64,000 nt of DNA from contig JAPOLY010000001.1 of NCBI GenBank assembly GCA_029976805.1, positions 57,240 to 121,239 on the forward strand. The letters are read 5' to 3'. The stretch is from a bacterium. Its GTDB lineage: Bacteria; Planctomycetota; UBA8108; UBA1146. The position numbers and the translations under genes are program-made. The stretch's first letter is position 1; each line of letters starts with the position of its first letter. The notes under the pieces were generated by a model, which was not told where the DNA came from, did no database searches, and saw only the letters and a program-made list of their open reading frames with translations. This document shows positions 168 through 43,897 of the stretch, one piece after another.

Positions 168-3100
168 TTAGCAGCCGTTGTAAGTGTCGCAGGTCAGACC
201 ATCGTCGGTCGGATCTTCGCCACAAACTGCCGGTCCCGGATCAGTCGGTGCAGGTCCACCGGAGAAGAGGGCAGCCAGACCGTAGATGGCGTCGGCGATG
301 TTGACGCCGCCGTCGTCGTTCTGGTCACAGCTGTCGGCACAACCACAGGGGGTACCACCGGAGAAGAGGGCTGCCAGCAGGAAGACCTCGTCCGCGATGT
401 TGAAACCACCGTCTTGGTTGGTATCACCACGCTTGAAGACGGGACCTCCGCCACCACCGCTCAGGAACTCAGCGTAGGCAAGAGACAGTGCAGACTGGTC
501 TCCACCGTAACCACCGATCTCCCAGGACTGAACCACAGTGTTACCACCGACGGTGGTCTCACTGGCGATACCGGTGTTGTACTGCGGAATCGCTGCGCCA
601 GTAGTGGGGTCGACAAGGGCGTCGTCAGAAGCCCAAATGACTCCAGCAGCGGCCACTCCGGCATCCGCACCGGCAAGGGTCAACTGGTCAGTCCAGTCGT
701 TGTCAGCCTGGTCCTGAGTGTAGGCCACGTCCTGGTTGGCACTCATGTCGAGTCCTGCACCAGAATCGAAACCGTCCATGGAGGTGAAGGTATCATCTCC
801 GTCACCGGTGTCGTAGGTGCCGTCATCGACACCGTCACGGCCGTCGAAGAGGGAGGCGACGTGGAGGAATCCGAAGTGATCTCCACCCTCGAAGTAAACG
901 CCTTTTCCGGCTTCACCGAGGAGGGCCAATTCGTCACCTTCAGCGGCGGTGATGCGGTAGTCGTTGGGGACCGTACCGGTCAGCGCCCAGATGTTGGCAA
1001 CGCCGGCATCGCTGGCACAGGGGTAATCGACCCAGCTACCGCGAACGATGGCAGCGTCGCGACCAGCACCGACGAGGGCGCTGAGAAGCAAATCGCCACT
1101 GTCGACAAGACCGACGTCTCCGCCAGTCTGAAGTCCCTCGACTGCGAAGATCAGATCGGTCTGACCTGCGTAGGTGAGCACGGAAACGCTGAGACCAACG
1201 GGGTTCGGACCACTGCCGCAATCGGTGACCACCTCGTACTGGTAGGTGCCGTCAGCCACGCCAAGATCGACGTAAGTGGCGTCAGCAGCACCCAGAGTGG
1301 CCACGGAGACACCGTCACGAAGGACCTCTTGAGAGGATGCATTCGGGTTCGGGGTCCAGTTGAGGGTCACGTCACCATTGGTGCAGTCAGCGGCACCGGT
1401 GAGGTTGGTCGCCGGAACGCAGTCATTAATGGTGTACTCAAGGGTTCCCACACCGGCAGCGTTGAAGGTACCAAGGCGGATCAGGTATTCCTGACCAGCA
1501 GTGGCAGCGAAGACAGTCTCCGCAAGGAACACGTTGCAGGCGGGGTTGTTGGTCGGGTTGGCACCCACATTGACGTCGTCACTGCAAGCCACGACCAGAG
1601 TCGGATCATCGAGCAGTGCGGCATCGTAGGTGTAGACGGCCAACATGGTGTCGGCACCGGCAATCACAGTATTCGGGCTGCAGGTGCTCACCAGCAGATC
1701 CCCGTCCACGGATGCGGTGTAACGAAGGAAGATGTCGTTGTTGATCTGGGTGATTCCGGTTCCGGGGTCACAAACAGCCAGATCGATCGGCACACCGGTT
1801 GTGGTGGTGTAAGGCGTCGCAATCTCCTGCTGGAAAGTTCCAACAGCAGCAACGGAAGCACCAGCGGGCCAGTTATTGGCCGGAGCAGTCTGCAGGGTGC
1901 AACCGGCAGAGTTGATCAGAGCACCGGTACCACCTGCTCCAGACCAAGAGGTGATCAGAACATCGAGGTCCTGATACTCCGGCTGGGGAAGGGTCAGGAA
2001 GGAAAGATCAGTAGAGGGCAAGGTGGCTTCGACATTGCCATCGATCTCGATGATCCAGGAAGCGGCTCCTCCGGCATCATCCCAAGTCAGGTTCCAAGAA
2101 GTATCTCCCACGTTCTGATCGCACTGGAGATTGGCGATTCCACCCGCAGATCCGCAGGTTCCTGCAACAGCAACGGAGTAACCGATATCCATGATGTAAC
2201 GGTTGTTGGGGAAACCAATTCCTGAAAGGGGGCTCGGTGAAGCGAGTCCACAAGCACCAGCAACGATGTAGCTGGTTCCAATCTCACCAGTGGCAGTAGC
2301 GTCAGTGAGTCCCATGTACCAGGAGTCTCCACCGTTGGCATTTCCATCGGGGGTGAAGATTTCCACAGCCAGATTTGCACTGGGGCCATAGGAAGTCATG
2401 CACTGAAGGGTGTTGGAGTTGGCGCCCAATCCATCAGGATCGACGACACCGGTTCCGAGAATGAAGTTGTAGATGTTGTCAGCAAGTTCAGGAACCTGGA
2501 ACTCTTCCTCGTACACCATCAGCATGGTGGTGTTACCGGGATCGGGGGTTTGTCCGACGTTGGTTCCGGCAAGGTAGGTGAAGTTCTGGGGGCCACCTCC
2601 ATTGAGGTCGATGATCAGACGGATACGAACCGGCTGGGTTCCACCTGCGAGCGCAGGGGTCGAAACGTTGACAGCAGTGGTCACACACTCGACGGTAATC
2701 TCGTCACTGACGCTGTAGCCGTTGACCAGATCGAAGGAACGCAGGTAAGAGTTGTCTGCATGAATACCACCGGCACCACAGGCGACACCGCCACCGAGCG
2801 GAAGAACCGTCGGGATCGGAATCATGGAGCCAACCACAGTTGACGGGCAGGGCTCGGCAATGAAAACGGTGCAGCAGATCTGAGCACTGGCAACACCAGC
2901 GACCACACCCTCAAGACAAATGACGGTCAGACCCGGGGGGAATCCGGTCAGAATGTCCGTTGCCGCTCCGGCAGTTCCATCAAAGGTACCGGTGAGGGTT
3001 CCGTTGAGGTAGTAGTTCACAGTGTCGTACTGATCCTGGTTTTCCCAGGTCAGAGTCGCGGTGTCGGTTGGCTCATCGTAAGCGCAAACCAAGTTTGCGG

Positions 3101-3614
3101 GTGCGATGGTGCCCAATGTGAAGGTGACGTCCATGTCTGTTGTTCCAACAGAAGCGGCGTCCCAACCACCGACACGAATGAAGTAGGTAACACCGGCGAA
3201 AACACCCGCACCTACGAGGTCGGATCCAAAGGCGGTGCATCCGGCTCCGTCACCGTTACAGCCGATCTCGATGAGACCAGTGCAACCTGCGGAGGCATCA
3301 TAAAGAATGATATCTGTATCAAGACCGCCTGGATTGACACAGGTACTCAGGTCGAGAAGACCATTGGCCGGAGCAGTCCAGCTGAACCAGACATCTGACT
3401 CAGTCGTTCCCAAAGCGGTGCCGGGGCAGGTCGCGCCTCCAGCGGGAATCGCAGTGCTGCTGGTTGCAGCGGTGTTGTCGATCGCCACCGTCACCGTACC
3501 CGGTGCGGTCAAGTTGATCGGCTGAGCATTGGCACATTCATCCGCTCCCTGTGCGCCAACGACGCCACAGGAGAGAATCATGAATGCAGCCACCAAAAAC
3601 GGTAGGTGTCTCAT
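168..3614 (-). CDS. Large secreted protein with PPC/fibronectin-like modules and C-terminal tandem dockerin-like repeats
   Basis: ORF 168..3803; likely start at ATG 3614 (MRHLPFLVAAFMILSCGVVGAQG signal peptide, preceded by AGGAAGGG). C-terminus [23 protein letters not shown]...QNDDGGVNIADAIYGLAALF. Confidence 0.85.
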   Translation of the reverse strand: MRHLPFLVAAFMILSCGVVGAQGADECANAQPINLTAPGTVTVAIDNTAATSSTAIPAGGATCPGTALGTTESDVWFSWTAPANGLLDLSTCVNPGGLDTDIILYDASAGCTGLIEIGCNGDGAGCTAFGSDLVGAGVFAGVTYFIRVGGWDAASVGTTDMDVTFTLGTIAPANLVCAYDEPTDTATLTWENQDQYDTVNYYLNGTLTGTFDGTAGAATDILTGFPPGLTVICLEGVVAGVASAQICCTVFIAEPCPSTVVGSMIPIPTVLPLGGGVACGAGGIHADNSYLRSFDLVNGYSVSDEITVECVTTAVNVSTPALAGGTQPVRIRLIIDLNGGGPQNFTYLAGTNVGQTPDPGNTTMLMVYEEEFQVPELADNIYNFILGTGVVDPDGLGANSNTLQCMTSYGPSANLAVEIFTPDGNANGGDSWYMGLTDATATGEIGTSYIVAGACGLASPSPLSGIGFPNNRYIMDIGYSVAVAGTCGSAGGIANLQCDQNVGDTSWNLTWDDAGGAASWIIEIDGNVEATLPSTDLSFLTLPQPEYQDLDVLITSWSGAGGTGALINSAGCTLQTAPANNWPAGASVAAVGTFQQEIATPYTTTTGVPIDLAVCDPGTGITQINNDIFLRYTASVDGDLLVSTCSPNTVIAGADTMLAVYTYDAALLDDPTLVVACSDDVNVGANPTNNPACNVFLAETVFAATAGQEYLIRLGTFNAAGVGTLEYTINDCVPATNLTGAADCTNGDVTLNWTPNPNASSQEVLRDGVSVATLGAADATYVDLGVADGTYQYEVVTDCGSGPNPVGLSVSVLTYAGQTDLIFAVEGLQTGGDVGLVDSGDLLLSALVGAGRDAAIVRGSWVDYPCASDAGVANIWALTGTVPNDYRITAAEGDELALLGEAGKGVYFEGGDHFGFLHVASLFDGRDGVDDGTYDTGDGDDTFTSMDGFDSGAGLDMSANQDVAYTQDQADNDWTDQLTLAGADAGVAAAGVIWASDDALVDPTTGAAIPQYNTGIASETTVGGNTVVQSWEIGGYGGDQSALSLAYAEFLSGGGGGPVFKRGDTNQDGGFNIADEVFLLAALFSGGTPCGCADSCDQNDDGGVNIADAIYGLAALFSGGPAPTDPGPAVCGEDPTDDGLTCDTYNGC

Positions 3615-3906
3615 AGGTGAAAACCCTTCCTGGTTAATGAATCCCTTTACCGGAATTCGGATATCCATTGCGAAAGTCAAAATTCCTCGCAGGAATAAAA
3701 ACAAATCCAAAGTTTCATGACAGAAGCACAAGCCCTGACGGACACCTGATGATCGGAGAGATTCCGATCTGTCAGACCACCTGAAAAGACCGCAAGTTGT
3801 CACAAAGTTACATTTAGCCCATTAACTTCAAATTTACCGGACATTCAGCACGGGTCAAGCACCCGCTCCGGTCTCAAAAAAGCCTTAATTAGTCTAGGGG
3901 AGTGTT

Positions 3907-5964
3907 TCAGGGACAATTTGCCGATTCGTCACAGGTCAGGAGAGTCGCTTTCGTGGGATCTTCTCCACAGGCTCCTTCCGGCTCAGGCAGGCTGGGAGAT
4001 CCTGGAACAAAGAGGTGTGAGAGCAGAAAGATGGCATCCGCCAGATTGACTCCTTCGTCGTCATTACAATCTGCAGAATCCCGACAATCGACCATGGCCG
4101 ACCCTGGAACAAAAAGTGACTCAAGAAGGAAAATGCCATCGGCAAGGTTGACCGAATCGTCACCGTTGATGTCTCCCCGGCGGAAGGGCGAGGCGATGAA
4201 GGACCCCTTGAAGGAGGCGATGAGATGAGTATCCGGGTATCCGAGATCTGAAAGTGGAACGGGAAGATCATTGCCACAGAACGGAGCCGAGAATCGGGTG
4301 GGATCGGACTCTCCGGAGTCGTTGGTTCCCAGAATCAGCAGATGGCCATTTGCCGTGCCATCAGGCAGATGAAATTCGACGACCACATTCATGCCGCAGG
4401 GAAGTTCCACAGGGTTGTCCAGAGTCAGGCACATGTGGGATGTCTCGAATGCGGGGACTTCGAAGGACTGTTCATGAATCAAATCCAGCAAAGAAGGATC
4501 GTTGATTCCGGACCCGGTCTGATCTTCATAAATCCGCAGGACGAGCGGCTGCACAGTAAAACCGGTCCCCGGATTGGAGTTTTCAATGCCGATGCGGATC
4601 GCCTCGAGATTCATGCCATTGCTGAGCTGAAAAGGGCTTTCACACGGGGAAAGTAGTCGCCATAACGATTGGGCCTGGTGACCGGTCGCGTCTCCACAAA
4701 AGGGTGTTCCCTGAGTGATGCTTTCTGTATCCACACTGTGACTGATCTCAACAGTTGCGGGATCACAACCGGGTGCCAACAGGTCGCAACTGACAGAGGG
4801 GGTCCAACTGTTGCCTGAAAATCCTTGCGCCTCAATGCGTACCAGGGAAGGAAGACTGGCTGTCACTCCAGCCCAACTTCCAGGATTTGCAGGCACGGTA
4901 TCGATCAGAATCCCATTTACGCGAATCTCAACGAAATCTGCAGAAGTGCTCGGATCCCATGAAGCAAGGAGGGTTCCGTCACTCAAGGAGGAGCAGGAAA
5001 ATCCGCTCAGTGCAGGAATCAGGGTTGGGCAATCATCGTGCCCCTCGACTACTGATATGGTGTTGCTTGAGTTGTCGACCACCCAATAGGAAGAGATACC
5101 GAATGGATCTGCAGTCGGTGCTGAAGCGGGTCGCGAACTCTCGACGCCATTGATAAAGAAACCGTGATTACTCAAATCGACCGGTGCCAGTGCGATGGAA
5201 CTTTGAGTGGATACGGAAGACAGGGTGGTGACGCGTCCAGCAAGATCATGCCCATGGGGAATGCTGAGCCGGTTGCAGTCGGCTCGAAACGCCAGACCGT
5301 TTCCGAGCCCGTTACCATCGGGGTGGTTCACTGAATTTCCAAGATAGGATCCATCGTTGATGGAGAGCAGGTCATAACGATCCGCAGTGATATCTGCTGC
5401 CCAGATGCCATCGGCTCCATCCCAGCACAGTCCACCAATGAATCCTCCGCCCTGAATATCCGCGATTCCGACGAGCAGGGGATCTGTTCCATCCGGATTG
5501 GAGCGCCAGATCTCATTGGGTCCAGGTGGGTTGATCACACCCCAGTAAAGCCATGTTCCATCGGTGGTCACACCGGTCACGGAGATCCCTGCAGGAGGAT
5601 TCAGAATCGGACCAATAGGGGCAAGGGTCAGGGCATCGTAGACCCAGCTCTCTGCACTGAAGAGTTCGGCGACGACCACGATGGGTTGAGCCCAGGGATT
5701 GTTGTCTGGCATGAAGCAGATGCCATAGGCACTGGTACCGGAAAGAGGGAAGGGCCCTGCCAGAAGATCCGCAGGATTCATCGGCGCTGTAGAAGTGGCC
5801 GAATTTCTGTCCTGTTCAAGCAATCCACGAGGAATCCCCTGGGCCACCACCTCCGAGGCGCTGAGCCAGAAAATCAGTATCGGAATCAGAACTGGAATCC
5901 GGGAGTGGATCCCCTTGCCCAAAATTCGGGCAGGAGTCATTCGTGGCATCTTCATCTTCCCCAT
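3907..5964 (-). CDS. Secreted protein with C-terminal tandem dockerin-like repeats
   Basis: ORF 3907..6027; several possible starts (5964/5955/5949/5940) before a hydrophobic signal segment (IPVLIPILIFWLSASEVVAQG). C-terminus RGDINGDDSVNLADGIFLLESLF...CNDDEGVNLADAIFLLSHLF. Confidence 0.8.
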   Translation of the reverse strand: MGKMKMPRMTPARILGKGIHSRIPVLIPILIFWLSASEVVAQGIPRGLLEQDRNSATSTAPMNPADLLAGPFPLSGTSAYGICFMPDNNPWAQPIVVVAELFSAESWVYDALTLAPIGPILNPPAGISVTGVTTDGTWLYWGVINPPGPNEIWRSNPDGTDPLLVGIADIQGGGFIGGLCWDGADGIWAADITADRYDLLSINDGSYLGNSVNHPDGNGLGNGLAFRADCNRLSIPHGHDLAGRVTTLSSVSTQSSIALAPVDLSNHGFFINGVESSRPASAPTADPFGISSYWVVDNSSNTISVVEGHDDCPTLIPALSGFSCSSLSDGTLLASWDPSTSADFVEIRVNGILIDTVPANPGSWAGVTASLPSLVRIEAQGFSGNSWTPSVSCDLLAPGCDPATVEISHSVDTESITQGTPFCGDATGHQAQSLWRLLSPCESPFQLSNGMNLEAIRIGIENSNPGTGFTVQPLVLRIYEDQTGSGINDPSLLDLIHEQSFEVPAFETSHMCLTLDNPVELPCGMNVVVEFHLPDGTANGHLLILGTNDSGESDPTRFSAPFCGNDLPVPLSDLGYPDTHLIASFKGSFIASPFRRGDINGDDSVNLADGIFLLESLFVPGSAMVDCRDSADCNDDEGVNLADAIFLLSHLFVPGSPSLPEPEGACGEDPTKATLLTCDESANCP

Positions 5965-6207
5965 CAAGGACAGTGATATAGGTTGCTCCTGTATACACAG
6001 AAGCGGGTTTTGGCCGCCCTTTGTCATATTTGTGCCCCCAAGATTAGCGGGGGGGGAAGTGGCAAGCGAGGGGTGAGGGACGCTTCTGGCACTTCTGTCA
6101 TGAATGACAGGTCTGACATTTGGGAATGTCGATCTTCAACGAGGATTCCTGAAATCGTCGTCTTTGGGACCAGATCGGGAATAACAGCATGGCCTTGACC
6201 TGGAAGA

Positions 6208-6246
6208 CAAAAAAAAGGGCCCCTCTGCGATTGCAGAGGGGCCCTT
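6208..6246 (-). terminator. Rho-independent terminator of the 6294-9572 gene
   Basis: AAAAAAAGGGCCCCTCTGC-gatt-GCAGAGGGGCCC; T-run on the minus strand. Confidence 0.9.
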
Positions 6247-6293
6247 CGCGAAACCTTCCCGAAAAGGAAAGGCTTCAGAACTTCCGGCCAGGC

Positions 6294-9200
6294 CTAGGGG
6301 CAGGGCGGGAAGGAAGCACAGTCGAGCGGATCAGTGTCGGTCGGATCGATTCCGCAGCTGGTCGGCGTCGGAGCAGGTCCGCCACTGAACAGGGCTGCAA
6401 GAGCGTAGATCGCGTCCGCAATGTTGATACCGCCGTCGTCGTTGGCGTCGCAGGAATCCAGACAGGTTCCAGCAGGGCCACCACTGAAGAGGGCTGCCAG
6501 CAGGAAGATGGAGTCAGCAATGTTGAATCCACCGTCAGCGTTGCAGTCACCACGGACAAACTCAGGAAGGGTCGGTCCGCCACCACCACCACCGAGGGCA
6601 GCAATGATATCGGCAGCCAACAGAACCTGATCGCCTCCGTAACCACCAAACTCCCAAGACTGGACGAGCACGTTACCGATCGGTGAGCCCGCAAGATCCT
6701 GGTTCTGGCTGTACGCTCCGGTGATGTAGGCACCGTTACCCTCTTGCCAGATGGCGCCGACATTCGGTCCACCTGCTTCAGGTCCGACAGTCAACTGGTC
6801 GGTCCAGTCGTTTCCTGCAGCGTCCTGGTTGTAAGGAACGTTTTGGATTCCACTGAAGTCCACACCGAGAAGTGTGTCCAGACCACTGACACTGAGGAAG
6901 GTGTCGTCACCATCCAGAGCGGAGAGAATGCCGTCATAGCCTTCGAAGGCTCCAATGGTGGGAGCGAAGCCCCACATGTCGCCACCCTCGAAGTAAACGC
7001 CGATTCCAGCTTCAACCCAAAGGGCCAGAGCATCGGAATCTGCAGTCGTCATGGGACCATCCTCGGGGAAGGTACCACTGCAGACCCAGACACGCTCGTA
7101 GGTGCCAATGACGTTACCCAGCTGGGAAGCCGGGAAGTCGACCACGGTCAGGAAGCTGATGCCGTTGGCGGTCAGGGCTGCCTCAAGAGCTGCAGAACTG
7201 TTGATTTGTCCGAGGTCAGATTCCGTCTTGAAGATGATGTCGGTCTCTCCGCCACTGGCGCAGGAGACATTGACAAAGACCGAAGCGGAAACGGCACTGC
7301 CGGAAGCACAGTTACCCGTCACGGTGTACTCGTAGGTACCGTTGCTGAGTGCAGTGGAATCGGTGTAGGAAGTGGTTCCTGCAGCGAGGCCAGCGGCCAG
7401 AACGACACCGTCACGAAGAACGTCGTAGGTATCGAATCCACCGTCGTCCCAAGTCAGGCTTGAGGTGCTGGTGGCACAGTCGTAGGTAGCAATGAAGTTG
7501 CTGATGGCCGTGGCACCACAGCTGACGCTGATGTCGAGGAAACCGGCACCCAGGGCACCGTTCCAACCACCGACCTGAACGTAGTAGCTTTCTCCGGAGA
7601 TCACGGGAATCTCGACGGAAGACATGAAGGCAGCGCCACCCGCGACATTGGTGCAATTGTCGTCACCGGAAGCGAGGCAGGTTGCACCCGCAGTCGGGCA
7701 ACCGGCAAGACCGTCGTAGACGATCAGAACAGTGTCGTCGTTGGATCCACCACCATCGCAGGTTTGAATCACAGCAGTACCGTCGGCAGTCGCGGTGTAG
7801 AGGAACCACACATCGTTGGTCATGTTGGCATCGCAGTCGATAGGGCCAGCAGTGGTAGAGACAGTGTTGTCCCAGGCAAAGTTGCCTTCACTCACCAGCT
7901 CAGCGTTGTCACAGGTATCGTTGGGAGCACCCGGACATGGGGCAGTGTTGACGCAATCGGGATCGAAGCAGTCAGTGAGGCCATCGAGATCGTTGTCGAT
8001 ACCGTCGGCACAGGAAACATCGTCTCCCTCGAAGCAGAGAGGTGCAGTTGCACAGTCCGGATCGGCACAGTCGGCGAGGGTGTCACCGTCATTGTCGATG
8101 CCGTCATCGCAGATTTCAGAACCGCAAGCGGGGTCTCCGCCGCAGTCTGCATCCAGGCAGTCAATGTCGCCATCAAGGTCGTCATCGACACCGTTGTCAC
8201 AAATCTCGCTACCCGAAGCACAGTTCAGGGTGAGCTCGTAAAGGCCCTGAGAACCACCGAAGCCATGGACGACAATGATGTACTCGACACCTGCCACCGA
8301 ATCCCAGAGGACGGTGGAAAGGAGGCCGGAAGAGCCTCCGGTGCAGTTGTCGTCGTTACCACCCACACAAATCGGAGTGGCGCAGTCGCCCTCGTAGACA
8401 CTGATCTTGGTGTCGTACTGTGCGGTGCCACTGCAAGTGGTGGCAATCGTCGTGAAGCCGGTTCCGGTGTGGGTGTAGTAAACCGCACCACCGGTTCCAT
8501 TGGAGGTAATGCACAGAGGCAGTGTGGAAGGTGTGGCCAGATTGGTGAATCCGGTCACCACGTCACCACACGAGATCGGAGTAGCCGTATCACACTCGTT
8601 ATTATCCGGAGCGAGGCAACCGGGGACTCCGACCGGGCAATCGGCCGTATCGATGCAGTCGATCAGGCCATCACCGTCGTTGTCGAGGCCGTCATCACAG
8701 ATTTCAAGACCACAGGGGCCAATACCACCGCAGTCGGCATCTGCACAGTCAATGGCGCCATCGCCATCGTTGTCGATTCCGTCACCACAGGTGGCAGCAT
8801 CACCCTCGAAGCAGAAGGGGTCACCGATGCAGTCGGTGTCGAAACAGTCGATGACACCGTCACCGTCGTTGTCGATGCCGTCATCGCAGATTTCGATTCC
8901 GCAAGGGGGAATTCCGGCGCAATCGATGTCCAGGCAGTCGATGGTGCCGTCACCGTCGTTGTCGAGACCATCGCCACAGGTGGCAGCGTCACCCTCGAAG
9001 CAGTTCGGTGCTCCCACGCAGTCCGGGTCAAAGCAATCGATCAGGCCATCGACATCGTTGTCGATTCCGTCGTCACAAATCTCAGCTGCAGGGAAGAAGA
9101 TGTTGAGTGCTCCGTCTCCTTCGGCACCATTCCAGCCGCCGACCTGAACGTAGTAGTTCTCACCGGCGATCACGGGAATCTGAACCTGAGACATGAAACC

Positions 9201-9572
9201 GGCTCCACCGGCGACGTTTTCGCACTCGTCGTCACCGGAAGCGAGGCATGCCGCTCCGGCAGTCGGGCAACCGGCCAGACCGTCATAGACGATCAGAACA
9301 GTGTCGTCATTGGTACCACCACCGAGACAAGTCTCGATCACGGCAGTGCCGGAGGCGGTGGGGGTGTAGAGGAACCACACGTCAGTGGTCATGTTTGCGT
9401 CGCAGTCATTGGGGCCTTCGATCAACGACCCGGTGTTGTCCCAGGGGAAAGAGCCCTCTCCGACAGCTTCAGCAGTCAGGCACTCATCATTGAGAGGCTG
9501 TGCCCCTGCATTACCCAGCGGAATCAGAGCCGAAATGGCCAGGATTGCCGCAAAAAATATGAAACGCTTCAT
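6294..9572 (-). CDS. Secreted protein with duplicated PPC-like domain, eight MopE-like metal-binding repeats and C-terminal dockerin-like repeats
   Basis: Signal peptide [25 protein letters not shown] with AAGGGAG RBS; repeats of the type [22 protein letters not shown]; C-terminus [23 protein letters not shown]... Confidence 0.88.
7925..8215 (-). repeat. MopE-like repeat cluster 2 (3 units)
   Basis: [17 protein letters not shown]..., [17 protein letters not shown]..., [17 protein letters not shown]... Confidence 0.8.
8605..9085 (-). repeat. MopE-like repeat cluster 1 (5 units)
   Basis: Alternating [10 protein letters not shown](G/V)DG... and ATCGDG(L/I)DNDGDG... units in the translated protein. 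Confidence 0.8.
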
Positions 9573-11982: not shown

Positions 11983-12930
11983 ATGTTTGATCGCGGTGGT
12001 TTGAAGCTGGGAACCGTTGATGGCATCACCATCCGCATCCATTGGATTTTTCTCCTTTGGGGACTTTTTGAATGGATGACTCTCTCCCGCAGCGCACCGG
12101 GAACAGATGCTTCCGCGGGGGAATCTCTCGCTTCAGGAAGTACCGTGATCTACTACCTGGTTTTTCTGTTCGCCTCGGTATTCCTGCATGAAATGGGACA
12201 TTGCCGTGCGGCGAGAAGGGTCGGCGGGAATGCCAGTGAAGTGTTGCTGTGGCCCCTGGGTGGGCTGGCAACCGTGGATATCCCTGACAGACCTGCGAAC
12301 CATTTGGCAGTAGCGATCGGTGGGCCGGTCGTCAATCTGGTTCTGTGGCTGATTCTTTTGCCATTGGCCATCTTTACCGGAGATGGAGTGGGTTCTTTCT
12401 TCCTGCGCATGCCCGTTTCTGATCCGCTTTCCATCGCTGCGGCAGTCAATCTGGACCTGCTGATTTTCAACCTGCTTCCTGCTTTCCCCCTCGATGGGGG
12501 CAGGATTCTTCACTCCATCGTCTGGTCGCGTCAGGGTGAATGGAGAGCTCACAAAACCATGATCACTTCGGGCAGGGTCGTCTCCCTGGCACTCTTGCTG
12601 ATCTGGTTGACCGTGGATGGTGCGAGTGGTTTTTTGCTGGCGATGGCTCTCATGATTTTTGCCCAGAGTTATGTGATGTCCCGGGCGGACCGTGAAGATG
12701 AGAGTGAATGGTGGCAGGGATCTTCCGAGCCAAAGCAAAGTTGGTGGGAGCAGCAAAAGCAGCGATTCCAGGAGCAACAGGATCAGAAACAGGCTCTCGA
12801 GGAATCACGAAAGAGATCCCGGGTTGATGAGCTGCTTGGGAAAGTGTCTCGGGAGGGAATCGAATCCCTGACCCCTGAAGAAAGAAAGTTTCTGGAGCAA
12901 GTCAGTCGCGAGTACGACCAGCGGGACTGA
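11983..12930 (+). CDS. M50 family site-2-type membrane metalloprotease
   Basis: VFLHEMGHCRAARR (HExxH) and NLLPAFPLDGGRIL motifs plus TM segments. Confidence 0.88.
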   Translation: MFDRGGLKLGTVDGITIRIHWIFLLWGLFEWMTLSRSAPGTDASAGESLASGSTVIYYLVFLFASVFLHEMGHCRAARRVGGNASEVLLWPLGGLATVDIPDRPANHLAVAIGGPVVNLVLWLILLPLAIFTGDGVGSFFLRMPVSDPLSIAAAVNLDLLIFNLLPAFPLDGGRILHSIVWSRQGEWRAHKTMITSGRVVSLALLLIWLTVDGASGFLLAMALMIFAQSYVMSRADREDESEWWQGSSEPKQSWWEQQKQRFQEQQDQKQALEESRKRSRVDELLGKVSREGIESLTPEERKFLEQVSREYDQRD

Positions 12931-14728
12931 CCCGGGGCAACTCGGCATCCTGATGTTGCAGCCACTTTTGCACCTCTTCCGGATCGTGATGAAGATCTTC
13001 CAGTAAAGCGAGAATGGCTGTCCATTTGCCATCAAATCTCAGTTCACCCTGTGATCTGGCCAGTGCGAGCCACGATTCAGCAGCAACCTTGCCTGCAAGT
13101 CGGCCCCTTCTCGGAGGCTCGGCCCCTTCACCGCGTAGCCAACGCCACGCCGCTTCAGGAGATTGGGGAAGGTGCGGCAGGGAGATCTGATTCCACATGG
13201 GCAAGTCTGAAGCGATCGGTTGTTGATCTCCTCGGATTTCAAACCAGAGAGCCTGCGGTTGAACCTGATAGTTGCTGGCAAGGGAGTGTGAGAGTCCCTG
13301 AGGCAAGAAGACCAGCGGGCGCTGAAGGGTATTTAACTCCCGCAGGGTATCCAGAACATCTTCCTTTTTCGTATCAGTAGGCAGTCCGAGTCTGACGGGA
13401 AGAATTTCTCCCCGAGGATCGAGAAGCGTGACATCCGGACGAATCTTTTCGAGCCACTGAATTGCTTCCAGAGCAATCCCCTGATCTCTGCCCCCCGTTA
13501 CCACCAATGACTCAGAAGGAACGGTATTCAAAACAGAGATTCCCCATTGCCGTACCAATTCCGAGGAGGGTTTCCATAAGGGCGGGGTCACCAGAAAAGG
13601 AATCGTGGCGGAGATCAAGATCGAGCTCAGGGAAACGAGCAACTTTTTCGATGGTTGGAAACGTGCCAGTGATCGGTGTGCCAGTGTCAGGGTCCAGCTA
13701 CAAAAAATGGCCGCTGGAAGTGCACTGAAAAGCGAAAACGGATCCAGGTCAGCGACTTTGGTTGGATCGGCACCGGGAAGCGACGCGGGAGCGATGAAGG
13801 CTCCGCTGGTGATGATCACCAGCAACAGTGCAACGTCTCCGGGTCGACGGAGGAGGGCCCAGATCAATCCGGGAAGGGCGAATCCCGCAGCGATCAGACC
13901 CCATTCCCGTGTGGACAGGACCAGTACCTCTATGGAAGGGGTTGAGATTTGCTGAAGGGACATGAGCCAGCCTTCAGAAAAAGAGGTCCACGTATTCGAG
14001 AGAGTGGGAAGGGGAGCAGTGCCCTGCAGGACATGGCCCAGCAGCAAGGACGAAAAGAGACCGGTCAGCAGGCCCAAGAGGATTGCGATCCAGCCTCGCG
14101 AGCGAACTCCCCGAATTCCCCGATCGAAGAGCATGGTTGCGAGTGAATAGATCAAGACTGGCAACATCGCGGGACCCAGTGCGACTGCAATCCCAAAGGT
14201 GAGGCCGACAAAAAACACTCCTCGTCCCGCCTCCGCCCTGACCTGATCAGTCGTAGCCAGAAGGATGGCACCACTGAGAAACATGAGCGGCAATTCTCCA
14301 CCTTCGACAACAAGGCTGCAAAGGCCGGGGGAGAGACCGATGATCAAGGCAGTGGGAATCACGGTCGACCGCGAGGCGTCGAGTTGGCGCATCCAGCAAA
14401 CGAGAACCGCGAATGCCAAACAGACTTCAGTGATCTCCAGAAATTTTGCGGAGAATGCGACAGGGAAGAGCAGGGTCAGGAAGCTTAGTAACCCCGATTG
14501 AACTGAAGCAGCGACAGATTGTGAAGAATGGGACGTCCAGTAAGAGGCGATCAATTCAGCGGTCGGTGTGGTCTCTGGTCCCAGAGGAACCAGCAGCCAG
14601 TAAAAAATGGCCAAAAGGAAAAAGATCAAACCTCCCCGAGCGACTGCGATGCGACCCGCCGGCAAGGCAGTTTGACGCCAGGTCGAACCCTCGACGAGAG
14701 TCAATCTTTCCTGATCCGCAGACCTCAT
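12902..14728 (-). CDS. Polytopic membrane protein, possibly DUF2723/glycosyltransferase-like
   Basis: Start ATG 14728 overlaps the upstream ubiA-like stop (ATGA); many TM segments followed by a soluble C-terminal part. Confidence 0.65.
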   Translation of the reverse strand: MRSADQERLTLVEGSTWRQTALPAGRIAVARGGLIFFLLAIFYWLLVPLGPETTPTAELIASYWTSHSSQSVAASVQSGLLSFLTLLFPVAFSAKFLEITEVCLAFAVLVCWMRQLDASRSTVIPTALIIGLSPGLCSLVVEGGELPLMFLSGAILLATTDQVRAEAGRGVFFVGLTFGIAVALGPAMLPVLIYSLATMLFDRGIRGVRSRGWIAILLGLLTGLFSSLLLGHVLQGTAPLPTLSNTWTSFSEGWLMSLQQISTPSIEVLVLSTREWGLIAAGFALPGLIWALLRRPGDVALLLVIITSGAFIAPASLPGADPTKVADLDPFSLFSALPAAIFCSWTLTLAHRSLARFQPSKKLLVSLSSILISATIPFLVTPPLWKPSSELVRQWGISVLNTVPSESLVVTGGRDQGIALEAIQWLEKIRPDVTLLDPRGEILPVRLGLPTDTKKEDVLDTLRELNTLQRPLVFLPQGLSHSLASNYQVQPQALWFEIRGDQQPIASDLPMWNQISLPHLPQSPEAAWRWLRGEGAEPPRRGRLAGKVAAESWLALARSQGELRFDGKWTAILALLEDLHHDPEEVQKWLQHQDAELPRVSPAGRTRD

Positions 14729-15633
14729 AGGTATACTTCTACAGCCATGCACAGCATGAAGATGAAGCTGATGGCGATATTGAACTCGAGAAGAGCGTTC
14801 TCTATCCGCTTCAATTCTCGATACTCGGATCTGATGCGCAGGTGTCCGATACACAGAAGGGTAGCGGTCAGAAGAGTGGCGATAAGTACAGGCAGAGATC
14901 GATCCAGTTCAAGGTAAAGCAGTCCCATCAGGATGATCATTACCAAATGGAATGATCGTGAAATGATCAGGGATTTTGCGATCCCGAAACGTGCAGGAAT
15001 GCTATTGAGAGACTGTTCTTTATCCACTTCCACATCCTGACATGAATACACGATGTCGAATCCAGCACTCCAGAAAAGTACGGCGGTTCCAAGGAGCCAG
15101 GGTAAGGGATCTGCGAGGTCTCCGGTCAGAACCAGCCATGCACCCACAGGTGCCAGACCCAGTCCGATTCCGAGAACTGCATGACAAAGCCATGTCAGCC
15201 TCTTGGTGTAGGAATATCCGAGGACGACGAGCAGGACGATGGGTGAGAGGAGTAACGCCTGATCACCGATCCATGCGCAGGTTGCAACGAAACCGAAGAT
15301 GGAAATCACGGTTGCGGTCAATACCTGGCCCGCAGTTAGACGGCCCGCTGGAATAGAGCGATTCTCGGTTCTCGGGTTTTTCCCATCGATATCGCGATCA
15401 GCCCAGCGATTGAAAGACATGGCAGAGGTTCTTGCGAACGCGATAGCCAATACAACCTGAAGAAAAGGCGTCCAACCGGAAGCAAGAAGATGGGAATCCT
15501 GAAGCGAAACCGCAAGAAATGCGGCCCCGATGGCAAACGGCAAGGCAAACAGGGTATGGCTGATTTTGATCATCTCACCAAACTCAAAGAGTTGGTTGAG
15601 AAATCCTGCAGTCGCCTTGCTGTCGGGATTCAT
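14725..15633 (-). CDS. ubiA: UbiA-family prenyltransferase (UbiA/MqnP-like)
   Basis: NRWADRDIDGKNPRTENRSIPAGRL and DIVYSCQDVEVDKEQSLNSIPARFG motifs. Confidence 0.88.
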   Translation of the reverse strand: MNPDSKATAGFLNQLFEFGEMIKISHTLFALPFAIGAAFLAVSLQDSHLLASGWTPFLQVVLAIAFARTSAMSFNRWADRDIDGKNPRTENRSIPAGRLTAGQVLTATVISIFGFVATCAWIGDQALLLSPIVLLVVLGYSYTKRLTWLCHAVLGIGLGLAPVGAWLVLTGDLADPLPWLLGTAVLFWSAGFDIVYSCQDVEVDKEQSLNSIPARFGIAKSLIISRSFHLVMIILMGLLYLELDRSLPVLIATLLTATLLCIGHLRIRSEYRELKRIENALLEFNIAISFIFMLCMAVEVYL

Positions 15634-18201: not shown

Positions 18202-19149
18202 ATGATTCCCAAAGTTCAAATCGTCAATGCTGGTGGTTCCAGAGAGACCCGGTTTGCCCCTCTCCCCCGGCTGTCGAAAGTGACCTCAGTCAGTCTTCTT
18301 TCGGCGATTTTTCTTTTGGTATTCTTTTTCACTGCAACGGATCTTCATGCCGTTTCAGATGAAGGGGAAGTGAAATGGAGCCGCCCGGGACAAGCACTGG
18401 ATCAATCGCTGGAGAATTTGTTTCCTGTGATCGTCGTACTTGCTTTGGAATCAGACGAGGAAACTGCGGACAAGGTGGCCAAAGTTCTCGAGGAATCCTC
18501 GGTGAAGAAATTATTGTCGGATGTGGTACTTCTCCGAGATAGATGGATCAAAACCGAGAAGGGTTGGCAATGGACGAAGTTGCCATCAAATCTGGACTCT
18601 GGACAACGCAAATCCGAGATCGCCTCACGCCAAATGCTGGAGCGACTGATCGTTGCCTCAGGAGGAAAAAGTGTGGTGGCGATTTTCGATCCGTATCTGC
18701 AAAAGGGAACGATGCTCACACCGTCAAAATTGAGGGCATCCAATGTTCGCAAGGCGATTCGCGCGACGACGAAAATTTGTGATGGATTTCGCCGTTCCAG
18801 GGAACTTGCAGGTAAGCTCCTCGATAAAGCACAAATGCAGGTTCAAGACATGCAAAATGCTTCAGCATTGAGAACCCTGGCCGGTCTTGAACGATTCAGA
18901 TTTCCAGACAATGAACCCCTGCTGAAGAGAAGGGCAAAGTTGCTGGAATTACTGGAGGAGCGTTGGAAAAAAGCCCGTTTCGAAGCGCGAGAAATGGAAA
19001 GATCCAATCGATTGGCCGCTGCAGCCGCCCGACTTGAGGAGATTCTCAAGGAGTTCCCCTATCCCGAGTGGGAAAAAGAAATCCGCGAAGACATCGGCAG
19101 GGTCTGGCGCCGTATACAGGGTCCCGGTGGAGGAACTCCCAACAGATGA
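18202..19149 (+). CDS. Hypothetical exported/membrane-anchored protein, upstream of and overlapping murQ
   Basis: Hydrophobic segment SLLSAIFLLVFFFTATDLHA; coiled-coil-like C-terminal part; stop overlaps the murQ start (ATGA at 19146). Confidence 0.7.
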   Translation: MIPKVQIVNAGGSRETRFAPLPRLSKVTSVSLLSAIFLLVFFFTATDLHAVSDEGEVKWSRPGQALDQSLENLFPVIVVLALESDEETADKVAKVLEESSVKKLLSDVVLLRDRWIKTEKGWQWTKLPSNLDSGQRKSEIASRQMLERLIVASGGKSVVAIFDPYLQKGTMLTPSKLRASNVRKAIRATTKICDGFRRSRELAGKLLDKAQMQVQDMQNASALRTLAGLERFRFPDNEPLLKRRAKLLELLEERWKKARFEAREMERSNRLAAAAARLEEILKEFPYPEWEKEIREDIGRVWRRIQGPGGGTPNR

Positions 19150-22648: not shown

Positions 22649-23041
22649 ATGTTGACAGATCAGTGCCGGATTTCGACCGCAAAGGGTTTACGGAGTTCGT
22701 CTATCGAGTTCAGTGGACGCGGACCGGGGATCGGTTTGATTCTGGGGGTCTTGTTGATTCTCTGTGCCGGTTGTTCCGGTTCCTCCCCAACAAGGGGAGC
22801 AGAAAATCCGCGGGGATCCCTGATTCCGCTGCAGCCCCGAACCACCAAGGTCATGAGCCTCAGGGGAGAGACTCTGGAGGATGTTGCCCATCGTACCGGT
22901 TTTGAGATCTCGGTTCTGGAAGGGCTCAATCCTTCACTGGTTGATGTCAGGTTGTCCACGGGTGTTGAAATACGCTGCCCTGTGGGCCAGCCTGGAATTC
23001 GCAGGGTCGAGCAACGGCCTTCGAAAGGGGCAAGAGATTGA
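22649..23041 (+). CDS. Putative lipoprotein with LysM-like domain
   Basis: LILGVLLILCAGCSG lipobox; MSLRGETLEDVAHRTGFEISVLEGLNP LysM-like; ORF 22502..23041, start uncertain. Confidence 0.6.
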   Translation: MLTDQCRISTAKGLRSSSIEFSGRGPGIGLILGVLLILCAGCSGSSPTRGAENPRGSLIPLQPRTTKVMSLRGETLEDVAHRTGFEISVLEGLNPSLVDVRLSTGVEIRCPVGQPGIRRVEQRPSKGARD

Positions 23042-24231
23042 ATGAGGAAAGCGCGGCAAGAGCTTCGGGCAGGGTCAGGTCTGAAGAACTGGAAAAAAGC
23101 CTTCTTGCACCCTACGCCATGTTCAGCAGTGACAGCCGGGGGCGTCAGCATCCTGAGGAAGCAGACGAGTACCGGACGATTTATCAGCACGACAGGGATC
23201 GCGTCATTCACTGCACGGCTTTTCGTCGACTTGAATACAAGACTCAGGTCTTTGCCAATCACCAGGGGGATCATTACCGAACCCGTCTGACCCATACCCT
23301 CGAGGTCGCCCAGGTTTCGAGAGCCGTCGCCCGTCGACTCGGCCTCAATGAAGATCTGGTTGAGACGATTGCTCTCGTTCACGATGTCGGCCACCCGCCC
23401 TTTGGCCATGCAGGTGAACGCGAACTTGCCCAGTTGATGTCGAATCATGGGGGCTTCAATCACAATCGACATGCCTTGAGGGTTGTCGATCTTCTCGAAT
23501 CCAGATATCCCGCATTCCCGGGACTCAATCTCTCCTGGGAAGTGCGTGAATCCATCGTCAAGCACTACGGACGTTTTGATGAACCTGAGCTGGACCAATT
23601 CCTGCCCGGCAAGCCACCCACATTGGAAGCGCAGTTGGCGGATATCGGTGATTCCCTCGCTTACGACAGTCACGATCTGGATGATGGCCTGCGATCAGGA
23701 GTGCTGGATCTCAGGGAGTTGTCAGAGATCGATCTGTTTCGGCGGGCGATGGAGAGGGTCAATGCCCTTCACGGTTCCGGTATCTCGAGTCGTGCACTGA
23801 TCGCCCGATGTGTCTCGGCGGTGATTTCCCAGCAAGTCAATGATCTGGTCCTGACCAGTCGTGAACGTCTGCAAAAGAATGCTGTCGGGGATGTTGAAGC
23901 GGTTCGCCAGCACGACGGGAACCTGATCGGTTTCTCCACGGCAATGTCTGCAGACAAGGCCCAACTTCAGGGATTTCTTCAGGAGAAACTCTATCGGGAT
24001 CCGTTTTGCGTGCGCATGTCCCAGAAGGGTCGTCGAATGGTGGCGGCACTTTTTGAAGAGTTTGTGCACGAACCGGCCCAATTGCCACCGGAGCATTTGG
24101 CCCGCTGTGCAGAGCTGGGTCGTGAACGTGCGGTCTGTGACTACATTGCCGGGATGACCGATCGTTATTGTGCGAAAGAGTATGAACGCCTGTTCCTTCC
24201 GAACAGCAGTGACCCCGGGAGAATGTCCTGA
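23038..24231 (+). CDS. dgt: Deoxyguanosinetriphosphate triphosphohydrolase-like HD protein
   Basis: CTAFRRLEYKTQVF, RTRLTHTLEVAQVSRAVARRLGLNEDLVETIALVHDVGHPPFGHAGE. Confidence 0.92.
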   Translation: MNEESAARASGRVRSEELEKSLLAPYAMFSSDSRGRQHPEEADEYRTIYQHDRDRVIHCTAFRRLEYKTQVFANHQGDHYRTRLTHTLEVAQVSRAVARRLGLNEDLVETIALVHDVGHPPFGHAGERELAQLMSNHGGFNHNRHALRVVDLLESRYPAFPGLNLSWEVRESIVKHYGRFDEPELDQFLPGKPPTLEAQLADIGDSLAYDSHDLDDGLRSGVLDLRELSEIDLFRRAMERVNALHGSGISSRALIARCVSAVISQQVNDLVLTSRERLQKNAVGDVEAVRQHDGNLIGFSTAMSADKAQLQGFLQEKLYRDPFCVRMSQKGRRMVAALFEEFVHEPAQLPPEHLARCAELGRERAVCDYIAGMTDRYCAKEYERLFLPNSSDPGRMS

Positions 24232-28763: not shown

Positions 28764-28847
28764 AAACAGCGGAATTGGAAACGATCTTGTGGAGAGACTT
28801 GCAGGAAGCGTGACAGATCGATATCGTTCCCGTCGCGTGACTTTTGG

Positions 28848-28919
28848 GCTAGCGTAGCTCAGCGGTAGAGCTCCCGCCTTGTAAGCGGGTGGTCGTGGGT
28901 TCGACTCCCACCGCTAGCT
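28848..28919 (+). tRNA. tRNA-Thr(TGT)
   Basis: Cloverleaf gctagcg...cgctagc; anticodon loop CTTGTAA; GGTTCGACTCC T-arm. Confidence 0.95.
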
Positions 28920-28969
28920 TTCATAAACTACCCCTCTTGAAGGGGTTAGGGCCTTGGTGCCCGCTGTTT

Positions 28970-28992
28970 GCGATTTTCCGGCGGAAAATCGC
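28970..28992. other. Perfect stem-loop between tRNA-Thr and tRNA-Tyr
   Basis: GCGATTTTCC-ggc-GGAAAATCGC. Confidence 0.7.
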
Positions 28993-29164
28993 CCTGAAGC
29001 GTGACCGGAAGGTCGCTGCGCAGGTGGCTGTACTTGGGTGGCTGTACCCTGATGGCAGTTTTGCAGTGGCGACGGCCCTGGCGCAAGTGTCCTGAAATGG
29101 ACCTGAAGCCCGGTTTTGAGCAAGTTTGAGTGATTTTGACAGGAACAGGAAAACAGAGAGTTTG

Positions 29165-29245
29165 GGGGGTGTGCCCGAGTGGTTAAAGGGGCTTGGCTGT
29201 AACCCAAGTGCGTAAGCTACGTTGGTTCGAATCCAACCGCCCCCA
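29165..29245 (+). tRNA. tRNA-Tyr(GTA)
   Basis: Type II tRNA with long variable arm; anticodon loop CTGTAAC; GGGGGTG/CGCCCCC acceptor. Confidence 0.95.
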
Positions 29246-29585
29246 CTCTCTCTGTTCTCTTTTCCTCCAAAAACCCGGATTTGCTTGAAAGAACCGCCTG
29301 AAAGTCGTCTCATTGCAAACTTCGCTTCGCAGCGAATCTCCGCTGATTCGTCTTCGGGGATCGTGTCGGCAGTCGACAACTGCTTGCACGATGCGTGTTT
29401 GTGAAGTGTGAATCGTTTGACGCGGTGTGGATGAAGCACGGTGTTGAGCGATGTTGACGAGTGATGTTGCATTGCCGATTTGCTGGCGTGCCGCGTCTCG
29501 ATCTCTGTTCATGATCATGGATCTTGATGGAGGTCGTCGGCGTTTGCATGAGGGTTGGCGAAGCCGTTGAAGTGTGAAATTCAGT

Positions 29586-29659
29586 GCGGGTGTAGCTTAG
29601 TGGTAAAGCCCCAGCCTTCCAAGCTGGTCATGTGGGTTCGATTCCCATCACCCGCTCCA
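29586..29659 (+). tRNA. tRNA-Gly(TCC)
   Basis: Acceptor GCGGGTG/CACCCGC; anticodon loop CTTCCAA; CCA encoded. Confidence 0.95.
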
Positions 29660-29712
29660 AGTAATCAGGCGGGAGCGACCACAGGTTGCGACTGCGACGA
29701 GAAGAAATCAGG

Positions 29713-29788
29713 GCTGCTGTAGCTCAGCTGGTAGAGCACGTCCTTGGTAAGGACGAGGTCACGGGTTCAAGTCCCGTCAGCAGCTCCA
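29713..29788 (+). tRNA. tRNA-Thr(GGT)
   Basis: Acceptor GCTGCTG/CAGCAGC; anticodon loop TTGGTAA; CCA encoded. Confidence 0.95.
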
Positions 29789-29927
29789 GACAATCGAGCC
29801 CGCACATGGGTGCGGGGGTGAACTTAAAAGGAATACGCCGTAGCCGGGTCACGAGTGTGGCTGGGTGGGGCGGGTAAAGAGACCCTGGTGACCGTATCGC
29901 GGTCTGATAGGGCGAGGAGATTGGATC

Positions 29928-31112
29928 ATGGCGAAGGAAGTCTTCGTACGCGACAAGCCTCACTGCAACATTGGAACAATTGGTCACGTCGACCACGGAA
30001 AAACGACTTTGACTGCCGCGATCACGAACGTGCTCGCCGAGGCTGGCATGTCCGAGAAGAAGGCGTTCGACCAGATCGACAATGCCCCCGAGGAGAGGGA
30101 GCGTGGTATTACCATCGCGACCGCTCACGTGGAGTACCAGACCGAAGGTCGTCACTACGCTCACGTGGACTGTCCGGGCCACGCGGACTACGTCAAGAAC
30201 ATGATCACCGGTGCCGCCCAGATGGACGGCGCAATCCTGGTGGTTTCTGCTGCTGACGGTCCGATGCCCCAGACCCGCGAGCACATTCTTCTGGCTCGCC
30301 AGGTCGGCGTCCCGAAGATCGTGGTCTTCATGAACAAGGCCGACATGGTCGATGACGAAGAGCTTCTCGAGCTCGTCGAGATGGAGATCCGCGAGTTGCT
30401 GAGCAGCTACGAGTTCCCCGGTGATGACATTCCGATCATCAAGGGTTCCGCACTCAAGGCTCTCGAAGCACCGGGCAGCGATGCTGCAGCTCCGATTCTT
30501 GAGCTGATGAAGAACGTCGACGAGTACATCGACATTCCGGAGCGTGACTCCGAGAAGGATTTCCTCATGCCCGTGGAGGACGTGTTCTCCATCGAGGGAC
30601 GTGGAACCGTGGTGACCGGCCGTATCGAGCAGGGCATCGTCAAGACCGGCGACGAGATCGAAATCGTCGGAATCAAAGAGACCCAGACCACCACTTGCAC
30701 CGGAGTTGAGATGTTCCAGAAGACTCTCGACGAGGGTCAGGCCGGTGACAACGTCGGCGCTCTTCTTCGTGGAACCAAGAAGGACGAAGTGACCCGTGGT
30801 CAGGTGCTGGCCAAGCCCGGCAGCATCACTCCGCACACCAAGTTCGAGGCAGAGGTCTACATCCTCTCCAAGGACGAGGGTGGACGTCACTCTCCCTTCT
30901 TCAACGGTTACCGTCCCCAGTTCTACTTCCGGACCACTGACGTGACCGGAAACACTGAGGTGGTGGGCGCAGACATGTGCATGCCTGGTGACAATGCCAA
31001 GATCAACGTGACCTTGATTCAGCCCATCGCCATGGACGAGGGTCTCCGCTTCGCAATCCGCGAGGGCGGCAAGACCGTCGGTGCAGGCGTGGTGAGTAAA
31101 GTCATCGAGTAA
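29928..31112 (+). CDS. tuf: Elongation factor Tu
   Basis: [69 protein letters not shown]. Confidence 0.98.
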
Positions 31113-31138
31113 GTCCGGCTTTGCCGGTGAGTTTGACC

Positions 31139-31175
31139 GGGAACGCCGTGGTGCCTTTTGGGTACCGCGGCGTTC
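31139..31175. other. GC-rich stem-loop downstream of tuf (possible terminator or processing site, no clear T-run)
   Basis: GGAACGCCGTGGT...ACCGCGGCGTTCC inverted repeat with one G-T pair. Confidence 0.6.
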
Positions 31176-31235
31176 CTGCTCCCCAAGTCGCTCCAGCCGG
31201 AGTGAATCGGGAGCGAAGCGGATCTGCACGACAAG

Positions 31236-31312
31236 AGGGCAGTAGCTCCAATTGGTAGAGCAGCGGATTCCAAATCCGCGGGTTGGGGGTTCGAGTCCCT
31301 CCTGCCCTGCCA
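31236..31312 (+). tRNA. tRNA-Trp(CCA)
   Basis: Acceptor AGGGCAG/CTGCCCT; anticodon loop TTCCAAA; 3' GCCA encoded. Confidence 0.95.
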
Positions 31313-31453
31313 ACCTTTGTTGCAGAGATGCAGAGTGTGATCGAGTTTTGAAAAAGCCTGCCAGGCAGGTCCTCAGTCCACCCCGGTGGGCTGCGAATCT
31401 TGCCGCGTCGTTGAACCGATCGCTTCGGCGATCCAGAGAGAGGGTCAGAGTCG

Positions 31454-31879
31454 ATGAGTTTTCGTCTCTACAAGGAGGGACAGGGCAAATGGGCACGAGG
31501 TGCTCTTGCCGTGATTCTTTTTGGCGTAGGTCTCTTCGCCGCCGTCTCCACCGCAGACTGGCTGGAAGGCAACGGTTATGGAGATGGGGATCTGTTTACG
31601 ATTCCCGGGATCGAATTCGGCGTTCAGGCGCGGGCGATCTACACCATTCTCGTGCTGTTGCCGTTTTTGCTGGCGGGCATCTGGTACTACAACAAACCCA
31701 GTCTCAGTGACTTCCTGATCGAGACGGAAGCGGAGCTGGAAAACAAGGTGACCTGGCCCACCCGCGATGAGACCACACGCAACTCTTTGGTCGTGTGTGT
31801 GACTGCGGTCATTATTTTGGGCTGGATCATGATGGCAGACGGATTGCTTCGCACTGTTCAGGGAGTGGTCTACGGATGA
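31454..31879 (+). CDS. secE: Preprotein translocase subunit SecE
   Basis: ENKVTWPTRDETTRNSLVVCVTAVIILGWIMMADGLL; position between tRNA-Trp and nusG. Confidence 0.88.
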   Translation: MSFRLYKEGQGKWARGALAVILFGVGLFAAVSTADWLEGNGYGDGDLFTIPGIEFGVQARAIYTILVLLPFLLAGIWYYNKPSLSDFLIETEAELENKVTWPTRDETTRNSLVVCVTAVIILGWIMMADGLLRTVQGVVYG

Positions 31880-32655: not shown

Positions 32656-32735
32656 TCTCGATTTTATCGAGATCCCAGCGGGAGGGCGGGGTGCATGTCA
32701 TGCCCCGTTCGTTGACCGCAGGATAGGCAGAGATC

Positions 32736-33161
32736 ATGGCAAAAGAAGTCACAGGGCTGATCAAATTGCAGGTCCCTGGCGGGCAGGCTACGCCGGCACC
32801 GCCGGTGGGTCCGGCGCTGGGTCAGCATGGTGTGAACATTGGTGAGTTTGTTCAGCGTTTCAATGCTGATACAGCCAGTCAGCAGGGATTGATTATTCCT
32901 GTTGTCATCACGGTCTATAACGACCGCACCTTTGATCTGACCTTCAAGTCTCCCCCCGCAGCAGTGCTGATCAAAAAAGCCATTGGCCTCGACAAGGGTG
33001 CCAATGATCCCGGACATGAGGTGGTGGCAAAGATCACCAGCGATCAGGTCCGTGAGATTGCGGAAACCAAGAAGAATGACCTCAACGCTGCTTCCCTGGA
33101 AGCGGCCATGCTGATGATTGCAGGAACTGCACGGAGCATGGGAATAGAGGTGGAGGACTAA
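32736..33161 (+). CDS. rplK: 50S ribosomal protein L11
   Basis: [37 protein letters not shown]. Confidence 0.97.
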
Positions 33162-33847: not shown

Positions 33848-33874
33848 GAGCCGCGAAGCTGGAAAGGAGGGCCC

Positions 33875-34405: not shown

Positions 34406-34410
34406 CTGAC

Positions 34411-34833: not shown

Positions 34834-34873
34834 TGATCGCCAGTTCCAGGATTGCAAAGTTCTGAACACGTCG

Positions 34874-38977: not shown

Positions 38978-38981
38978 TCCA

Positions 38982-43883: not shown

Positions 43884-43897
43884 CGGGGTAGAGAATC

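Follow-up and report, generated by a model that had tools for sequence, protein, structure and literature searches.

The C-terminal tag shared by three neighbouring secreted proteins of a marine planctomycete is best explained, with good confidence, as the dockerin half of a cohesin–dockerin surface-assembly system that would comprise the tag, adaptors and lipoprotein anchors; this reading draws on sequence profiles and structural models. The three proteins are encoded in a window of 64,000 nucleotides, the whole stretch of DNA analysed (positions 57,240 to 121,239 of contig JAPOLY010000001.1, forward strand; GTDB lineage Planctomycetota; UBA8108; UBA1146). The window's own assembly (GCA_029976805.1, hereafter G000) is a 2.88-Mb, 91%-complete metagenome-assembled genome (MAG), and the class to which it belongs probably attaches much of its secreted proteome to the cell surface in this way. 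The original prediction, made from the window alone, held that three neighbouring secreted open reading frames (ORFs) end alike in a dockerin-like pair followed by a cysteine-containing tail, and the translations confirm this at 171–431, 3910–4179 and 6297–6554, all on the reverse strand (tags 1, 2 and 3, respectively). The tag and cohesin families, their counts, positions and architectures, the lipoboxes and the class-wide co-occurrence described below were all computed.

The tag as a dockerin homologue

Tags 1–3 end at the stop codon or one to two residues short of it. Over ~90 amino acids, tag 2 is 53% and tag 3 is 74% identical to tag 1, and 41 of 91 columns are invariant across all three. 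This resemblance is far above chance, because the alignment of the three window tags, used as a three-row profile for contig scans, finds 116 more copies in G000, the great majority with E < 1e-11, for a total of 119. On the assumption of roughly one gene per kilobase, tagged genes are estimated to make up about 1 in 20–25 of the genome.

The tag consensus, RGDCNGDGSVDIADAIFLLAYLFGGG...TCLDAADVNDDGSLDIADAVYLLSYLFSGGPPPPAPFPNCGPDPTADGLDCDSYSGCP, contains two tandem repeats of ~22 residues, each composed of a Ca loop (DxNxDGxxxxxD) and a helix, which is the organization that characterizes a dockerin. The Ca-ligand positions are 79–100% conserved, two Asp residues being invariant, and one repeat shares 46% identity with the other. 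Near two-fold repeat symmetry is a feature of dockerins with dual binding modes. In a profile search of the PDB with the tag, dockerins rank best (2y3n, E 1.2e-6). The AlphaFold model of the tag places dockerin helices at residues 13–24, 33–36 and 46–57 and leaves the tail uncertain, and the best 33 Foldseek matches to this model are all dockerins, albeit at a modest top E of 3.4e-3. As judged from profile and modelled fold, the tag is a homologue of the dockerins, beyond a mere analogue. Even so, ordinary annotation overlooks the window tags, since Pfam Dockerin_1 reaches them weakly or not at all: it gives a weak match to ORF 2 (E 0.012, below the cut-off) and none in ORF 1 or ORF 3. Across G000, the same family (PF00404) at E ≤ 0.001 detects 36 of the 119 copies, and NCBIfam holds no model for the tag.

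Some cysteine residues of the tag tend to be lost together. A linker Cys and the Cys of an LxC motif each occur in 97% of tags. Among 110 terminal tags, the Cys of the CGxDPT motif and the last Cys are both present in 78 and both absent from 24, with the last alone found in eight and the first alone in none. An optional pair, one Cys per Ca loop, is complete in 26 copies and reduced to a single Cys in three. This paired presence and loss leads us to infer up to three disulfides per tag, the linker Cys being predicted to bond with that of LxC and the CGxDPT Cys with the last one; the pairing is taken from co-loss alone because the tail is of low confidence in the AlphaFold model.

Position, export and cargo of tagged proteins

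One of the 119 copies is cut by a contig end and was excluded from the count of positions. The tag is C-terminal in 111 of the 118 judged copies, mostly 0–1 residues before the stop codon. The placement of the module at the extreme C-terminus, as originally proposed, accordingly holds for the large majority and fails for seven copies, at least three of which (C68:22866, C33:9423 and C101:11424) directly follow the protein start, right after the signal peptide. The expectation that tags accompany signal peptides was borne out: in the stretches around every tag copy, each frame being read with a simple hydrophobicity heuristic, a signal-peptide-like start was found in 97 of the 105 tagged frames whose 5′ end is complete, versus 6 of 41 window ORFs used as proxies.

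Among the Pfam families assigned to tagged proteins are M4, M12B, S8 and S9 peptidases, the di-haem peroxidases CCP_MauG and DHOR, DUF1800, penicillin amidase, endonuclease I, multicopper oxidase, lectin, FG-GAP, HYR, P-domain, LTD and Ig-like repeats. Among the top 25 Pfam families of each half, the cargo consists mostly of peptidases, di-haem enzymes and adhesin-like repeats, and no cellulase pattern is seen. A cellulosome proper was rejected on the grounds that these top families are not led by plant-polysaccharide hydrolases and that no scaffoldin of G000 carries over three cohesins in tandem.

Candidate cohesin partner and putative adaptors

A cohesin-like partner co-occurring with the tag had also been anticipated, and 76 cohesin-like domains were found in the same genome. 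Of 29 class genomes sampled, 28 give a Pfam Cohesin match, usually a weak one, and the four matches in G000 all lie within tagged proteins. Iteration from one of these matches yielded 74 domains in 45 tagged proteins, and a 34-row profile gave the 76 for the whole of G000; PF00963 by itself recognizes six of the 34 members of this alignment. The domain is ~150 residues long, in keeping with the ~140–150-residue jelly roll of a cohesin. Against the PDB, its profile finds solved cohesins (4uyp, E 8.3e-7; 5lxv, E 2.1e-6), and its AlphaFold model (pLDDT 96.2) returns from Foldseek, among the matches listed, cohesins or cohesin-bearing chains in 50 of 50 cases (best E 6e-8, TM 0.75).

The 45 proteins of G000 that combine cohesin and tag carry one to three cohesins each, and the remaining 74 of the 119 tagged proteins are cohesin-free. 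In these putative adaptors, the typical order is signal peptide, one to three cohesins and tag, with the last cohesin mostly 5–12 residues upstream of the tag. Approximately 31 consist of little beyond these three elements, and some bear extra repeats between cohesin and tag. The tags of adaptors are hardly distinct from those of cargo and barely form a sequence class of their own, in the way that type I and type II dockerins do: the difference between within-group and between-group identity is 0.8 percentage points, where permutation gave up to 1.1. Near-identical genes of the signal peptide–cohesin–tag type also form tandem clusters, as at locus L073 on contig C32 of G000 and, in the congener G015, at C15:44306–53708 and C3:43033–49272; such clusters also break assemblies at contig ends.

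Putative lipoprotein anchors

Contig-end fragments aside, only three cohesin proteins of G000 lack the tag, and in each a stalk leads to a cohesin at the C-terminus; several cohesin ORFs of G015 that seemed to be tag-less, and one on C32 of G000, were left out as contig-end truncations. The long He_PIG protein (C159:19733) has 1002 residues, the lipobox LSGC and nine He_PIG matches ahead of its cohesin, and the short one (C159:22795) has 484 residues, the lipobox LGGC and three He_PIG matches. The third (C161:13712) has PKD repeats and an N-terminus lying beyond the contig; its counterpart is complete in the congener G213, where 2331 residues carry the lipobox LAGC, ~25 PKD-like repeats and the C-terminal cohesin. 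G015 encodes the same three tag-less cohesin proteins and no others, fragments again aside. The two He_PIG lipoproteins lie adjacent to each other and beside a cohesin-plus-tag adaptor in G000, G015, G101 and G163, and in a fourth genus (G177) the short lipoprotein and the adaptor have a much longer gene in between.

A credible lipobox is present in ~3 of the 97 signal-peptide-bearing tagged proteins. In Escherichia coli, lipoproteins without Asp after the lipid-bearing Cys go to the outer membrane. An outer-membrane site is predicted for the anchors by this rule, because none has Asp in that position, and the 25-PKD stalk would then extend well past the membrane. The cohesins of the anchors nest among those of the adaptors. 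The features of these tag-less lipoproteins fit those expected of a surface receptor for the tag.

An alternative reading of the adaptors, considered unlikely, takes the cohesin-like domain ahead of the tag to be a structural companion that stabilizes it, the role that X-modules play beside type II dockerins, with the real ligand elsewhere, for example a cell-surface polymer. The short spacing between the last cohesin and the tag is what such a companion would have; however, it is difficult to reconcile with the 74 tagged proteins that have no cohesin, with anchors that bear cohesins of the adaptor type and no tag, and with Foldseek matches that are cohesins and not X-modules.

Distribution across the phylum

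A sample of 294 genomes was drawn evenly across the phylum, consisting of 21 members of the class and 273 others. The tag profile saturates in all 21 class members and gives 1–11 matches in 21 of the 273 others; the cohesin profile saturates in the same 21 and gives a single match in four of the 273. First-look tag candidates, not all of which were scored, number from 68 to 413 per class genome. The named relatives are MAGs of Planctomycetota, several of them marine (TMED53, MCMED-G47 and UBA1146). Outside the class, two genomes of one family (G092 and G196, family f35) have one strong cohesin-profile match each (E 8.5e-33 and 4.2e-34, respectively), which may represent transfer of a single component out of the class.

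The tagged array and its surroundings

ORF 1 (168–3803, reverse strand) is 1211 residues long when counted from a GTG codon, although its true start is likely the Met near 3614, ahead of the signal peptide, rather than the GTG at 3803. It contains GBD_T9SS_assoc-type domains and ends in tag 1, a pair of dockerin-type Ca loops followed by the tail VCGEDPTDDGLTCDTYNGC. ORF 2 (3907–6027, reverse strand; 706 residues) has a signal peptide, no confident Pfam domain and tag 2, in which the Ca-loop pair precedes the tail ACGEDPTKATLLTCDESANCP. ORF 3 (6294–9572, reverse strand; 1092 residues) has a signal peptide, eight NF033662 repeats and tag 3, again a Ca-loop pair with a Cys-containing tail. All three are tagged cargo, as they carry the tag and lack a cohesin. 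A fourth tagged ORF lies just beyond the left edge of the window (C123:53832–54092), and the array thus comprises four genes.

The repeats of ORF 3 match the NCBIfam model NF033662 (acidic double-disulfide repeat) at E 1e-61, amid other secreted domains, and a literature search found no papers using that name. A second common domain, seen by eye, directly precedes the tag in ORFs 1 and 3 (TDLIFAVEG... and TDIIFKTES..., respectively), and Pfam gives it no name. Beside the array, a ribosomal and transcription region with five tRNA genes, rpoB, EF-G and SecY occupies 28847–46699 and 56677–58050. The window also holds ORFs of 271–650 residues without a Pfam family at E ≤ 1e-4, some of which may be non-genes: 12902–14854, 22660–23673, 46834–47649 and 60739–61932 on the reverse strand, and 18202–19149 on the forward strand.

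Proposed assembly and its alternatives

In the proposed cohesin–dockerin system, signal peptides would carry tagged proteins across the inner membrane by Sec export, and the proteins would then reach the exterior through some outer-membrane route. There, secreted proteins would dock onto cohesins by the dockerin-family tag, whether C-terminal or, less often, right after the signal peptide. The three tag-less lipoproteins, with their He_PIG Ig-like or PKD stalks and C-terminal cohesins, would hold a first layer at the outer membrane, and the ~45 adaptors with both the tag and one to three cohesins would lengthen or branch the assembly. In this manner, much of the secretome, including proteases, di-haem enzymes, DUF1800 proteins and adhesin-like proteins, may be presented at the surface in a complex that is not a cellulosome. 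Branches or chains would be likelier than a strict two-level hierarchy, because adaptor and cargo tags barely differ and the cohesins of both anchors and adaptors intermingle, the former nesting within the latter. A bolder version, offered tentatively and with rather less than even confidence, is that the whole class makes its outer surface from one cohesin–dockerin kit, in which stalks seed adaptor chains that polymerize into a sheath and ~5% of the proteome plugs in, replacing anchoring by the type IX secretion system (T9SS), sortases or an S-layer.

Several points weigh against the proposed system. Binding of the tag by cohesin is inferred from sequence and single-domain models. Cohesin and tag are immediate neighbours within many proteins, where a part of the pairs may be intramolecular or structural. 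The co-occurrence of the two families amounts to one evolutionary event, as it is confined to one clade. Additionally, signal peptides and lipoboxes were called by heuristics and not by SignalP, and the placement of the anchors in the outer membrane, facing outward, is a rule-based guess.

In a second alternative, a dedicated T9SS-like, PEP-CTERM/exosortase or sortase machine would read the tag as a C-terminal sorting signal, and the cohesins would be unrelated. T9SS C-terminal domains (CTDs) and PEP-CTERM sequences are likewise single C-termini common to many secreted proteins per genome, and the strong C-terminal bias of the tag over very diverse N-terminal architectures is as seen in those families. 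They nevertheless differ from the tag in sequence and fold, occur strictly at the terminus and are processed, whereas the fold of the tag is that of a dockerin and seven copies are non-terminal, some directly behind a signal peptide. The sorting models of NCBIfam give no match to the tag, although no search aimed at sortase, exosortase or T9SS genes was made. The terminal tags (n = 111) are acidic, with a net charge of −6 or lower in all and a median of −12, and no membrane-spanning segment followed by basic residues is evident in their last 40 residues, the 17-residue hydropathy mean reaching a maximum of 1.69 with a median of 0.75. A T9SS sorting domain was rejected for the absent sorting-model match and the non-terminal copies, and a PEP-CTERM or sortase tail for the acidic charge of the tags and the missing membrane stretch; this alternative is considered very improbable. 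The original suggestion of an anchoring or assembly tag like a dockerin or a T9SS CTD thus keeps its first half, by PDB profile and Foldseek, and loses its second to the lack of a sorting model, the acidic tail and the N-terminal copies. Equally improbable is a stable Ca-binding, disulfide-closed protective cap without a specific partner, which the near-invariant Ca ligands and Cys on highly varied proteins would suit, but which leaves the 76 cohesins, the lipoprotein anchors and the matched class-wide distribution unexplained.

Comparison with known systems

Cohesin–dockerin pairs are best known from the digestion of cellulose by anaerobes. Judged from sequence, parts of this kind seem to be the chief means by which an uncultured marine planctomycete class attaches secreted proteins to its cells, and a likely function is offered for the common end of more than 100 secreted proteins per genome. 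The complete set of parts (tag, adaptor and lipid anchor) leads to directly testable protein pairs, and the cysteine-tailed dockerin is an addition to the toolbox of designed protein assembly. Pfam alone conceals most of this cohesin–dockerin system. Related proposals exist, the planctosome among them; what is new here is the scale, the lipoprotein anchors, the adaptors with both halves and the Cys tail. A search of the open-access literature found no description of the lipoprotein anchors or the Cys tail, nor of such a system at the scale of a whole class.

The clostridial cellulosome (PF00404 and PF00963) similarly has tandem Ca-loop/helix repeats on secreted proteins, the cohesin jelly roll as the counterpart of the candidate partner, adaptors with both halves and cell-surface anchoring proteins that bear cohesin. 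Unlike its dockerins, the tags described here add a CGxDPT..C..C tail with putative disulfides, and the cargo is mostly non-carbohydrase; in place of SLH or sortase proteins, lipoproteins stalked with He_PIG or PKD domains would serve as anchors. Dockerin expansion has been described in kelp-associated planctomycetes (PMC5264255). Ca. Stygibacter of the Cloacimonadota, also a non-clostridial diderm, has a cellulosome-like complex in which secreted peptidases and hydrolases bear dockerins at the C-terminus and a scaffoldin supplies the cohesins (PMC8542988). That complex relies on one large CTD-anchored scaffoldin with tandem cohesins and carbohydrate-binding modules, where many small adaptors and lipoprotein anchors are found here. 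For freshwater Nemodlikiaceae, a small, non-cellulolytic cohesin–dockerin complex of peptidases and one adaptor was proposed as the “planctosome” (Andrei et al. 2019; PMC6461901). In design it resembles the present system, with a planctomycete host, non-cellulolytic character, peptidase cargo, a proposed adaptor with cohesin and dockerin and a proposed cohesin-bearing surface anchor. The planctosome has few proteins and an LTD/P-domain/TSP anchor, whereas the system described here numbers 76 cohesins and more than 100 tags per genome, has putative lipoprotein anchors and a Cys tail, and extends across a whole class.

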